The position numbers and the translations under genes were made by a program. Source: Gammaproteobacteria bacterium (GTDB lineage: Bacteria > Pseudomonadota > Gammaproteobacteria > Thiohalomonadales > Thiohalomonadaceae). From it: 34,014 nt of DNA. Location of the stretch: positions 1-34,014 of the forward strand of contig JACUTZ010000008.1 in the NCBI GenBank assembly GCA_014859545.1, given 5' to 3'. Shown piece after piece: positions 1,448 to 20,872 of this stretch. Within the stretch, counting starts at the first letter, position 1. Every line of letters begins with the position of its first letter. Under the pieces are notes generated by a model. It did not search any database. It had not been told where the DNA came from and saw only the letters and a list, made by a program, of their open reading frames with translations.

Positions 1448-2602
1448 TTAGTCCTGGTGTTCCACCACCTCGAGATGGCCATTTCTGACCATCAGTGCCA
1501 ATTCGCCATCGAGTAATCTTTGCAAGGCCACGCCGGCGATGGCAGCGCGCCAGCCCTGTTGCAGGGGCAGGTCCCGCTCGCCCATGACCAGGCGCTCGAG
1601 ATCGCGTCGCCCGGCTACCGCGCCTGGGCTGATCGCCTGCTGCTGACAACGCTCACGCAGCAAGGCCATCAGCACGTCGACCAGTGGCTCCTGCTCGGCT
1701 GGGAGACGCGGACCGGTCTTGGGGTGGGGCCAGTTGGCCTTGGGGGTTTCCTTGGCCAGGGCGATCTCCCTTAGCAGGGATTCGCCATGGCGGCGCAAAC
1801 AGCTTTCATCCAGACCACGAATGCGCGCGAGACGGTCCAGGCTGCCTGGCATTAGCCGTGCCATGTCCAGCACCACCTCGTCCTTGAGGATCCAGCGGCG
1901 GGGTTTATCCTGTTGGCGGGCTTGTTGTTCACGCCAGGCCGCGAGCGCCTGCAGCACCGCTATCTGCACGCCGTGCAATCGGTTACTGCCCTTGATCCGT
2001 TGCCATGCCAGTTCCGGTGGATTGCTGTAGCGGGTACTGTCGCTCAGGGCGGCAAAGTCCGCGTTTAGCCAGGTTTCACGTCCCAGTTCACGGAGGCGCT
2101 GAACTTGACGCAGATAGACCTGACACAGGTGGCGTACATCATCGGCGGCATAACTGAGCTGGACTTCCTCGAGCGGGCGGCGGCACCAGTCGGTGCGTGC
2201 CTGTCCCTTTTCCAGTTCAATCCCCAGCTCCGCCAGTACCAGTGCGCCATAGCCGATCTGTTCTCCCTGACCGAGTACGGTGGCAGCGATCTGGGTATCG
2301 AAAATTGGCCCTGGCACCTTGCCACACAGGTCATAGAAAATTTCCAGGTCCTGATGGGCAGAGTGCAGTACCTTGGTGATGCCTGGCTCAAACAGCAGTT
2401 CCAGCAAGGGATCCAGATTTTGCAGCGCCAGCGGGTCGATGCAGGCCACGAGATCCGGGGTGGCAACCTGCAGCAGGCACAGGCGTGCCCGGTAGGTACT
2501 TTCACGCAGAAACTCGGTATCCAGGCTGAACCACTCGGCCTGGGACAGTTGCTGACAGAGATCGTCTAACTGGGTGGGGGTGTCGATATAAAGGGCGCTC
2601 AT
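1448..2602 (-). CDS. rnd: Ribonuclease D
   Basis: A 384-aa 3'-5' exoribonuclease of the DEDDy type, which trims the 3' ends of tRNA precursors and other small RNAs. The metal-binding residues are visible: D28 and E30 in SLDTEFLRE, D85 in HSAHQDLEIF, and Y151/D155 in YAADD. An HRDC nucleic-acid-binding domain follows at about residues 208-285, and a second helical region completes the usual length (E. coli RNase D is 375 aa). It lies 72 bp downstream of the ptsI remnant on the same strand and directly before the phospholipase D-like gene. The start context has no clear Shine-Dalgarno sequence, but no better in-frame start precedes it and the N-terminus fits the family. Confidence 0.93.
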   Translation of the reverse strand: MSALYIDTPTQLDDLCQQLSQAEWFSLDTEFLRESTYRARLCLLQVATPDLVACIDPLALQNLDPLLELLFEPGITKVLHSAHQDLEIFYDLCGKVPGPIFDTQIAATVLGQGEQIGYGALVLAELGIELEKGQARTDWCRRPLEEVQLSYAADDVRHLCQVYLRQVQRLRELGRETWLNADFAALSDSTRYSNPPELAWQRIKGSNRLHGVQIAVLQALAAWREQQARQQDKPRRWILKDEVVLDMARLMPGSLDRLARIRGLDESCLRRHGESLLREIALAKETPKANWPHPKTGPRLPAEQEPLVDVLMALLRERCQQQAISPGAVAGRRDLERLVMGERDLPLQQGWRAAIAGVALQRLLDGELALMVRNGHLEVVEHQD

Positions 2603-2674: not shown

Positions 2675-3185
2675 TTAGTGGGGGGGGGCACTGGCCTGAA
2701 GTTGTGAGAGGCGCTTGGTGATTTGTTCCGGACGATCCCGGTAGAGGATTTTTTCGAGTTGCTTTTGGAGTTTGCCTACATGGGATTGCCGGATCACCTG
2801 TTTGACGGCCAACAGGCTGGCGGGCGGGGCGCTGAATTCACGCAGGCCCATCGCTAGCAGCAGTGGGGTGTAGCGGGGATCGCCGACCATCTCGCCACAC
2901 ATACTGACCGTGACCTTGGTGTGAGCCGCCGCCTTGATCACCTGATCGATCAGTCGCAATACCCCAGGATGTAGCGGCTCGAACAGGTGATTGAGGCTTT
3001 CATCGACGCGATCGCTGGCGAGCGGTTTCCAGTGCCCGGTGCAGGCGCGCGACCTCCTGGTCCAGATAGGCCTCTGGCAGCATGTACTCGACGATATCGA
3101 GCTGGCCGCGTTGTTGTACACGGGCTTTGCCGATGGCGATGCCGCGTGAGACGGCGGTGGCGCTCAGTGCGATAGGCATGGACAA
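2675..3185 (-). pseudogene. ptsI: PTS enzyme I (ptsI), internally deleted and frameshifted
   Basis: Enzyme I passes phosphate from PEP to HPr and is normally about 575 aa. The start (ATG 3183-3185 with GGGAG upstream) encodes a normal N-terminus (ALSATAVSRGIAIGKARV) for about 54 residues, then stops at TGA 3000-3002. In another frame the true C-terminus begins near 3020 (LASDRVDESLNHLFEPLHP), keeps the active-site cysteine motif MCGEMVGD, and runs to the stop at 2675. Compared with E. coli EI, about 400 central codons are missing, including the HPr-binding domain, the phosphorylated histidine and most of the PEP-binding barrel. The two parts meet within about 3006-3030 around CTCGCCAGC, a string that fits both sides, which suggests deletion at a microhomology. 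Nothing here could act as EI. The gene follows HPr, as an intact ptsI would. Confidence 0.9.
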
Positions 3186-3285: not shown

Positions 3286-3555
3286 TCAGGCATCTTCGCC
3301 GAATTTATCGGCGATCAATTGTTCCAGTTCATTCAGTGCCAGATCCTGGTCGGGGCCGTCGATCTGCAGGGTGATCTGACTGCCGCAGGCGGCTGCGAGC
3401 ATCATCACCCCCATAATGCTTTTACCGTTGACGGTACGGCCATTGCGACTGACCTGGATGTCACTTTGAAAACGCGATGCCAGGCCGACAAATTTGGCGG
3501 CGGCGCGGGCATGCAGGCCAAGTTTGTTGATGATGGTAAGTTCTTTATTCAGCAT
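3286..3555 (-). CDS. ptsH: HPr phosphocarrier protein
   Basis: An 89-aa phosphocarrier. The start at 3555 places the two canonical residues at their textbook positions: H15 in GLHARAA, phosphorylated by enzyme I, and S46 in GKSIMGVM, the HPr kinase target. An alternative ATG at 3567 overlaps the EIIA-Man stop and would add four residues; neither start has a good Shine-Dalgarno sequence, so translation is probably coupled to the upstream gene. The protein could also be called NPr/PtsO, since its neighbours are nitrogen-PTS genes. Retention of S46 agrees with the hprK gene three genes upstream. The natural phosphate donor, the adjacent ptsI, is broken, so phosphorylation of H15 would need an enzyme I encoded elsewhere. 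Confidence 0.93.
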   Translation of the reverse strand: MLNKELTIINKLGLHARAAAKFVGLASRFQSDIQVSRNGRTVNGKSIMGVMMLAAACGSQITLQIDGPDQDLALNELEQLIADKFGEDA

Positions 3556-4844: not shown

Positions 4845-5786
4845 TCAGCCTTCGTGTTGCATGATGTCGTGTTGGCGCTGGATGAATTCCTGCGCGGGAT
4901 CCTGATTGTTAGTGTACAGGATATGCTTGCGCGCTGCTGCCTCGACCAGTACCGCCAGGTTGCGTCCAGGGGCCACCGGGATGCTGACTTCGCAGACCTT
5001 TACGCCCAGGTATTCACATAGCTGGCGGCTGCCATGCAGGCGGTCGGCCTCAATCTGTTCTGGTCCGGCACTGTTCAGGCGTACGATCAGTTGCAAGGGC
5101 ATGCTCTGCTTGACCGCGTTATCACCAAACATGGCGCGAATATTCAGCAGCCCCAGGCCACGCACCTCGAGGAAGTCCTGGAGGACGGGCGGGCAGTAGC
5201 CATCCAGATGATCCGGGGCGAGACGGCGAAAGATCGGTGCATCATCGGCGATCAGGCGTTGTCCACGGGTGATCAACTCCAGTGCCAGTTCACTCTTGCC
5301 GATGCCGCTGTCACCACCCAGCAACACCCCGATCCCCATTACCTCCATGAATACCCCGTGCAGTACCAGGCTGTCGGCCAGGTGATGGTTGAGGTAGTGC
5401 CCCAACTCGGCGACCAGGCGCTCACTGGGCAGGGGGGAGCCAAGCAGTGCGATACCCTGTTGCTGCGCCAGGTCGAGCAGGGCCGCTGGGGCCTTGAGCC
5501 CGGCAGCGATCACGATCACCGCAGTGGTCTCGCCACAAAGCCGTTCCAGGGCATCGCCAAGGGCGTTCTTTTTGAGGGTGTGTAGATAGGCCAGGGCTGC
5601 GTGACCGAGCACGACGAGCGGGTGGGATTGCAGGGGGTTGTAAAGCCCGACCAGGCTATAGTCGTGCTGCGCGGCCTGAATCGCCGGGATGCGGCGTCGA
5701 ATCCTATCTGTGGGGATGAGCCAGCCCAGCTGTAGCGAACCCTGACAGGCCGCATACAGTTGGGTCGGCTCGAGATCCTGGTTCAT
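4845..5786 (-). CDS. hprK: HPr kinase/phosphorylase
   Basis: A 313-aa bifunctional enzyme that phosphorylates and dephosphorylates Ser46 of HPr. The C-terminal half shows the P-loop GDSGIGKS (158-165), the preceding conserved histidine H143 (VLHGVFMEV) and the HprK signature LEVRGLGLLNI (206-216). The N-terminal half is the usual regulatory domain. The chosen ATG at 5784-5786 is separated from the ptsN stop by one base (TGAgATG), which agrees with the family N-terminus; the frame is open further upstream, but only as an out-of-frame shadow of ptsN. HprK is standard in Firmicutes and occurs in some proteobacteria, where it sits between ptsN and rapZ as here. Confidence 0.95.
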   Translation of the reverse strand: MNQDLEPTQLYAACQGSLQLGWLIPTDRIRRRIPAIQAAQHDYSLVGLYNPLQSHPLVVLGHAALAYLHTLKKNALGDALERLCGETTAVIVIAAGLKAPAALLDLAQQQGIALLGSPLPSERLVAELGHYLNHHLADSLVLHGVFMEVMGIGVLLGGDSGIGKSELALELITRGQRLIADDAPIFRRLAPDHLDGYCPPVLQDFLEVRGLGLLNIRAMFGDNAVKQSMPLQLIVRLNSAGPEQIEADRLHGSRQLCEYLGVKVCEVSIPVAPGRNLAVLVEAAARKHILYTNNQDPAQEFIQRQHDIMQHEG

Positions 5787-5787
5787 C

Positions 5788-6252
5788 TCAGGGGTGGTCG
5801 TGTTGCCATTCCTGGATGGCCTGGAGTAACTGCTGGGGTTCGCTGGCATTGCGCAGCCTGGTGACCAGCTCGCTGTTGCTGAACATCTCGGCCAGTTGCG
5901 CCAGCAGTTGCAGATGCTCCTCGGTGGCCTGTTCGGGGACCAGCAGGGCAAATATCAGATCCACGGCCTGACCATCGATGGCATCGTAATCAACACCGCT
6001 CTCCAGCTTGAGCAAGGCAGCGATGGTGCGATTGCTGTTTTTGATGCGGGCATGGGGGATCGCCACACCACGACCCAGTCCGGTACTGCCGAGCCGTTCG
6101 CGTGAGAGCAGACTGTCGAATACCTGGCTTTGGCTGAGATCCGTCTCACCGTTGGCAATCAGCTGGCTGAGTTGCTCAAGCACCCGCTTCTTGCTGGCGG
6201 CCTGGTAGTTACAGATGATCCGATCCAGTTCAAGTAATTGAGAGAGCTGCAT
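5788..6252 (-). CDS. ptsN: Nitrogen-regulatory EIIA (EIIA-Ntr)
   Basis: A 154-aa EIIA of the fructose/mannitol type. The phosphorylated histidine is H67 in GRGVAIPHARI, the family's diagnostic stretch. EIIA-Ntr regulates potassium uptake, envelope and sigma-54-linked processes by protein-protein contacts that depend on its phosphorylation state. It follows hpf by 20 bp and precedes hprK by one base, keeping the classical rpoN-hpf-ptsN order. With the neighbouring ptsI broken, it would be phosphorylated only if a PtsP- or PtsI-type enzyme I exists elsewhere. Confidence 0.95.
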   Translation of the reverse strand: MQLSQLLELDRIICNYQAASKKRVLEQLSQLIANGETDLSQSQVFDSLLSRERLGSTGLGRGVAIPHARIKNSNRTIAALLKLESGVDYDAIDGQAVDLIFALLVPEQATEEHLQLLAQLAEMFSNSELVTRLRNASEPQQLLQAIQEWQHDHP

Positions 6253-19279: not shown

Positions 19280-19282
<3 letters not shown>

Positions 19283-19415
19283 CCGCAAAGACGCAAAGGG
19301 CGCAAAGCAACAACAAACTCAAGATGGGTGGGCGAGAATCCCTCCTGAGCTTCACGGCAGCAGTTGTTTGCCATCATGATGTTTTTCTTTGCGTCCTTTG
19401 CGCCTTTGCGGTGAA
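19280..19415 (+). repeat. CGCAAAG palindromic element 1
   Basis: A 136-bp element filling most of the hisG-hisD gap. The left arm (19282-19307) and right arm (19387-19412) are inverted copies of ACCGCAAAG followed by two more CGCAAAG units. The arms match at 24 of 26 bases, and the two differences would pair as G-U in RNA. The inner 79 bp holds further partial pairing (CTCA...GGG with CCCTCCTGAG). The outer ends read TAACCGC and GCGGTGAA. No coding potential is seen. Confidence 0.88.
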
Positions 19416-19449
19416 ATGTTTTTAAGTGAAATAAACGGGAATACGTGAC

Positions 19450-20754
19450 ATGGCTGAGATCAAGCGACTGGACAGTGGCAGCAGCGACTTCTGGCCCGAG
19501 CTGGATAGGCTGCTGGCCTGGGAGGGCGTTTCCGATGATAAGGTTAATGGCATCGTGCGGGAGATCCTCGCGGCGGTGCGCCAGCGTGGCGATGCGGCGC
19601 TGATCGAATACACTAACCGCTTTGACCGGATGCAGGTCAGCAGTATGGCCGAGCTGGAGATCCCCCAGGCACGCCTGCAGCAGGCCCTGGCGGCGATCCC
19701 GCAGGCCCAGCGAGAGGCGCTGGAAAAATCCGCCGAGCGGGTACGCGCCTACCACGAACACCAGAAGCAGGCCTCCTGGTCCTATACCGAGGCCGATGGC
19801 ACCCTGCTGGGACAGCAGATCACCGCGCTGGATCGGGCCGGGCTCTATGTGCCGGGTGGCAAGGCGGCCTATCCTTCCTCGGTGCTGATGAATGCGATCC
19901 CGGCCAAGGTGGCCGGGGTACGGGAATTGATCATGGTGGTGCCGACCCCGGATGGCGAACTCAATGAGCTGGTGCTGGCGGCGGCCGCCATCGTCGGGGT
20001 CGATCGGGTCTTCGCCCTGGGCGGTGCCCAGGCGGTAGCCGCGCTGGCCTATGGCACCGAGACCGTTCCCCAGGTGGACAAGATCGTCGGCCCCGGCAAT
20101 ATCTTTGTCGCCACCGCCAAGGGGCTGGTGTTCGGCAGCGTGGGTATCGATATGATCGCCGGCCCTTCCGAGATCCTGGTGATCTGCGATGGTAAGACCG
20201 ATCCGGACTGGATTGCCATGGACCTGTTTTCCCAGGCCGAGCACGATGAGGATGCCCAATCGATCCTGCTCTGTCCGGATGCGGATTTTCTCGACAAGGT
20301 GGCGCAAAGCATCGACAAACTGTTGCCCGAGATGTCACGCAAGAGCATCATCGAAACCTCACTGCGCATGCGCGGTGCGCTGGTCAAGGTCAAGGACCTG
20401 GACGAGGCGGTGGCGATCTGCAATCACATCGCCCCCGAGCATCTGGAGCTGTCGGTGGAAGACCCGCTGGCCATGTCCACCCAAATCCGCCACGCCGGGG
20501 CGATCTTCATGGGTCGCTACACCGCCGAGGCGGTGGGCGATTACTGTGCCGGCCCCAACCATGTGTTGCCCACCTCACGCACCGCCCGCTTCAGCTCACC
20601 GCTGGGGGTTTATGATTTCCAGAAACGCTCCAGCCTGATCATGTGTTCCGCCGATGGTGCCGCGGTATTGGGCGAGACCGCCTCGGTGCTGGCGCGCGGC
20701 GAAGGCCTGGAGGCCCATGCCCGCTCGGCCGAATACCGCTGCAAAAAGAATTAA
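19450..20754 (+). CDS. hisD: Histidinol dehydrogenase
   Basis: A 434-aa zinc enzyme that oxidises histidinol to histidine in two NAD-dependent steps. Visible motifs are [29 protein letters not shown], the zinc-ligand stretch AEHDEDAQS (E264, H265) and the catalytic pair E330-H331 in APEHLEL. The length matches the family. The ATG follows ACGTGAC with a weak GGGAA upstream. The gene lies between two palindromic elements, and its stop TAA forms the left end of the second. Confidence 0.96.
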
Positions 20755-20872
20755 CCGCAAAGGTCGCAAAGAGCGCAAAGGAATACAGGCTGCTGTGTAA
20801 ACGAGCTGTAGATACGCATAACACCATTTGTTCACGTATTTTCTTTGCGACCTTTGCGATCTTTGCGGTGAA
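20752..20872 (+). repeat. CGCAAAG palindromic element 2
   Basis: A 121-bp element in the hisD-hisC gap, built like element 1. The left arm is 20754-20780 and the right arm 20843-20869, each with three CGCAAAG units; 24 of 27 bases match. The outer ends TTAACCGC and GCGGTGAA agree with element 1, while the inner 62 bp does not, so only the arms are conserved. It ends about 26 bp before the hisC ATG. Confidence 0.88.

Follow-up and report, generated by a model that had tools for sequence, protein, structure and literature searches.

In the regulatory PTS of Brucella melitensis, phosphate is passed from PEP via PtsP to an HPr-type protein and then to both EIIAs, as was shown biochemically, and HprK acts on a conserved serine of the HPr-type protein (PMC2937029). 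For alpha- and gammaproteobacteria, a 2008 study described that ptsI (EI-R) has disappeared from the rpoN cluster and has been displaced by ptsP; it also noted an HprK without the N-terminal domain in Coxiella and in alphaproteobacteria (PMC2405797). Here, we analysed a stretch of 34,014 nucleotides (the window), which is contig C192 of a gammaproteobacterial metagenome bin of 253 contigs (2.44 Mb, 94.6% complete, 0.9% contaminated). On its minus strand lies a gene cluster in the order rpoN-hpf-ptsN-hprK-rapZ-EIIA-Man-HPr-(ptsI)-RNase D. The best explanation overall, which we consider quite probable, is that ptsI is a fresh pseudogene that arose when one deletion took out about 1.24 kb, and that PtsP serves the regulatory relay. 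The features of the locus are as follows.

1448..2602, minus strand: RNase D-like gene, downstream of ptsI (named from its own sequence rather than by a family search)
2675..3022, minus strand: ptsI 3′ remnant, about 108 codons of the PEP-binding domain with CGEM and the native stop (PF02896, TIGR01417, tblastn)
3012..3022, minus strand: deletion junction, about 11 bases alignable from both sides
3012..3179, minus strand: ptsI 5′ remnant, start codon and about 55 codons from the N-terminal domain of enzyme I (PF05524, tblastn)
3286..3555, minus strand: HPr (ptsH/ptsO), with H15 and S46 present (KLGLHARAA, GKSIMG); the sole HPr of the genome
3560..3979, minus strand: EIIA of the mannose family, full length; the sole EIIA-Man of the genome
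3976..4833, minus strand: RapZ, RNase adapter, full length (NF003828 above cut-off)
4845..5951, minus strand: HprK, HPr Ser kinase/phosphorylase, with both domains (TIGR00679 295.8 bits, cut-off 240); the N-terminal extension of the ORF as listed is over-long
5788..6252, minus strand: EIIA-Ntr (PtsN), full length (TIGR01419 above cut-off)

Elsewhere in the window, a KKAPAKKAP repeat run at the contig start (34-258) encodes a lysine/alanine/proline-rich, histone-H1-like tail. In addition, inverted-repeat elements ACCGCAAAGNNGCAAAG...CTTTGCGNNCTTTGCGGTG at 19280-19420 and 20750-20870 flank a hisD-like gene (19450-20754), and these look like dispersed intergenic repeats.

The initial annotation held that ptsI has lost its centre while its ends and its partner genes are kept. 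The Pfam and tblastn results confirm the loss, with the N-terminal and C-terminal codons listed above remaining out of frame, and the partners are indeed intact, since HPr retains H15 and S46 and EIIA-Man, EIIA-Ntr, RapZ and the two-domain HprK are full length. The 5′ remnant starts with an ATG at 3179 and matches PEP-utilisers_N (PF05524) at positions 2-50 of 121 (E 3e-8); its frame runs on wrongly to a TGA at 3002-3000, giving a peptide of 59 residues. The 3′ remnant matches PEP-utilizers_C (PF02896) at positions 212-292 of 293 (E 4e-23), and the enzyme I model TIGR01417 is covered by the two remnants only at positions 2-51 and 460-562 of 565, out of frame. The N-terminal, mobile phospho-His and PEP-binding domains that a functional PtsI carries in a single frame are therefore not found together here. 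A G9 homopolymer (2680-2688) adjoins the ptsI stop codon and is within chance expectation.

To the congener (G001), residues 1-56 of PtsI match 3179-3012 at 66% identity and residues 467-574 match 3022-2699 at 69% identity by tblastn, and residues 57-466 have no counterpart between the two remnants. Measured on the congener sequence, the deletion spans 1,241 bp, or about 410 codons where about 400 had been estimated, which is not a multiple of three and thus causes a frameshift, and the deleted segment contains the phospho-histidine domain. Since the two remnant matches overlap at 3022-3012, the shared sequence at the junction is at most about 11 bp, and the crossover most likely lies inside these bases; the junction was placed by codon-level alignment and tblastn, and a long-gap DNA alignment located it poorly. 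As the sequence shows, a single deletion with so short a shared sequence at the join took out the middle of enzyme I together with its phosphorylated histidine.

The 3′ remnant has zero internal stops and zero further frameshifts, and the 5′ remnant is likewise without extra lesions. This good conservation would also be expected if the pieces were still functional, with the N-terminal peptide and the C-terminal PEP-binding fragment serving as regulators or complementing each other. However, the pieces lack the mobile histidine domain and the greater part of the PEP-binding domain, no in-frame start stands at the head of the 3′ remnant (the GTG at 3121 that is in frame with the listed ORF falls within the N remnant, in the other frame), and the conservation is explained by recency, so that we regard functional pieces as extremely improbable.

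In the congener, ptsI is full-length (577 codons) and lies directly upstream of RNase D, with the HPr cluster on a separate contig. Because the RNase D neighbour is common to the congener and the window, the intact and the deleted ptsI occupy corresponding positions. The initial annotation would have taken a full-length ptsI at this exact place in reads or relatives as a sign of an assembly artefact; the comparison did find the intact gene in the same slot, but in another species, so the deletion in this genome is not refuted by it. In the comparison of the window with the congener, the N and C remnants have pN/pS values of 0.34 and 0.35, respectively, compared to 0.22-0.42 for seven functional neighbours (RapZ 0.22, RpoN 0.22, HPr 0.34, HprK 0.42). 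Hence the two pieces of the broken ptsI have not diverged more quickly than its functional neighbours, as expected for a recent pseudogene. Outgroup PtsI proteins show roughly the same identity to the window as to the congener (for L008, 104/164 versus 102/163 residues), and in the C part of PtsI a few of them lie somewhat nearer to the congener than to the window. Since the remnants diverge like the neighbouring genes and carry no extra lesions, the loss is either recent, as was proposed earlier, or an artefact; that is, selection would have kept ptsI normally constrained up to a short time ago, unless the deletion is not real, two readings that sequence alone does not separate.

We consider it unlikely that the deletion is a metagenome assembly artefact or comes from a minority strain, in which case the dominant population would have an intact ptsI and the assembler would have joined across the middle. 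The fragmentation of the bin and the intact congener gene at this place are in keeping with such an artefact, and remnants without a sign of relaxed selection are also expected from it. In contrast, the sequence shared at the junction is far below the usual assembly k-mer, which makes a repeat-driven misjoin unlikely, none of the bin's other contigs contains the missing middle, and the loss matches a recurrent pattern of the family (see below). Using the whole PtsI of the congener as query, residues 57-466 were not found elsewhere among the 253 contigs, and a second ptsI was not found in the 94.6% complete bin using both enzyme I domains and the whole congener PtsI as queries. These searches matched only the ptsI remnants, PtsP on contig C82 and a PEP-synthase-like protein on contig C26. 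Plasmid records held only enzyme I proteins of less than 60% identity, and viral contigs yielded one fragment of 45%, which is uninformative. A second strain of the species of the window was absent from the genome contigs searched, in which the congener was the one close relative matched. As a counterpoint to a fresh pseudogene relieved by PtsP, a second ptsI could lie in the missing part of the bin.

The suggestion that the system is fed by a further enzyme I, for example PtsP, for which the genome was to be searched, is supported by the intact ptsP on C82. It encodes a protein of 754 aa with a GAF domain and the N, mobile and C enzyme I domains, has the active-site motif GSSTSHTAILAR, is 82% identical to the PtsP of the congener, and adjoins a Nudix-like gene resembling rppH. 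With a PtsP that has both GAF and the active-site His, an HPr/NPr with His15, and EIIA-Ntr, the components of a PTS-Ntr are present. In contrast to these, PTS_EIIC (PF02378) and EII-Sor (PF03609), the two EIIC families searched, had no match in the 94.6% complete genome, which suggests that the relay is regulatory. Given the intact ptsP alongside a single HPr, a single EIIA-Man and EIIA-Ntr, HPr is most likely supplied with phosphate by PtsP, with HprK acting on Ser46. By homology and by the Brucella biochemistry, PtsP (enzyme I-Ntr) would take phosphate from PEP to His15 of the single HPr, the His-phosphorylated HPr would pass it to EIIA-Ntr and EIIA-Man, and HprK would add an ATP-dependent signal at Ser46. 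With PtsP doing the same work, ptsI could then be lost, as happened elsewhere in the family.

It had also been considered that His15 of HPr is no longer phosphorylated and that control is by HprK at Ser46 only. This alternative needs an intact HprK and an intact Ser46 site, both of which are present, but given the intact PtsP it is unnecessary. Moreover, both EIIAs, which need His-phosphorylated HPr, are kept with a divergence typical of the neighbourhood, and in ptsI-less relatives HprK tends to be shortened or missing, which is the opposite of a Ser46-only system. We therefore hold control through Ser46 alone to be very improbable.

Among 19 other genomes of the same family, ptsI is present in 12 and absent in 7 (G003, G004, G005, G007, G010, G012 and G013). 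HPr and EIIA-Man are kept in all seven, and PtsP was found in six of them, the exception being G003, whose completeness is just 82%; the genome of G010 consists of one contig. An MgtE-like gene comes after HPr in G004 and G007. No ptsI traces were found in the stretches of the ptsI-less relatives' loci that were read, using a tblastn-type check with positive controls. Both the family and the class include many genomes with ptsP, HPr, EIIA-Man and often HprK but without ptsI, and since the loss was also published in 2008 (PMC2405797), it is less surprising here. Compared to the six ptsP-bearing family members without ptsI, the HPr/EIIA-Man cluster is likewise kept with ptsP present and ptsI lost; however, their loci were read without ptsI remnants, while this genome keeps remnants, and the HprK open frame is only about 176-188 residues in 4 of the 6, whereas it is full-length here.

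Across family and class (relatives G000-G055), the absence of ptsI is accompanied by an HprK that is short (C-terminal domain only) or absent. For 45 relatives with HPr, full-length HprK, for which an open frame of at least 270 codons served as a length proxy, was found in 24/26 with ptsI and in 4/19 without it (Fisher p ~1e-6), with ptsI presence called from frame length and identity. With one genome per genus, the counts were 18/20 and 4/17 (p ~5e-5). The relatives vary in completeness, and the statistics ignore phylogeny. Tentatively, ptsI and the N-terminal domain of HprK may form one functional unit, such that, after the loss of ptsI and takeover by PtsP, HprK is shortened step by step or disappears, and this genome would stand between the two events; a full-length HprK beside a recently deleted ptsI is in line with an early phase.

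Taken together, these results look like a recent example of a known trend, the replacement of ptsI by ptsP, in which the apparent freshness is what is specific to this case. The first step of the replacement can be seen before the remnants have become unreadable, and the data suggest a link, open to testing, between the loss of ptsI and the shortening of HprK; no new regulatory principle is revealed by the deletion. As in the losses described in PMC2405797, the same gene is lost from the same rpoN-ptsN-hprK-EIIA-HPr cluster and ptsP is retained, but those losses were inferred as old from presence and absence, whereas in this genome an internal deletion of recent date is seen. As in Brucella melitensis (PMC2937029), there is PtsP as enzyme I, one HPr-type protein with His and Ser sites, two EIIAs and HprK; the Brucella set has no permease, and here the two EIIC families searched had no match. 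In contrast to Brucella, in which HprK is truncated (PMC2937029), this genome has a full-length HprK and visible ptsI remnants.
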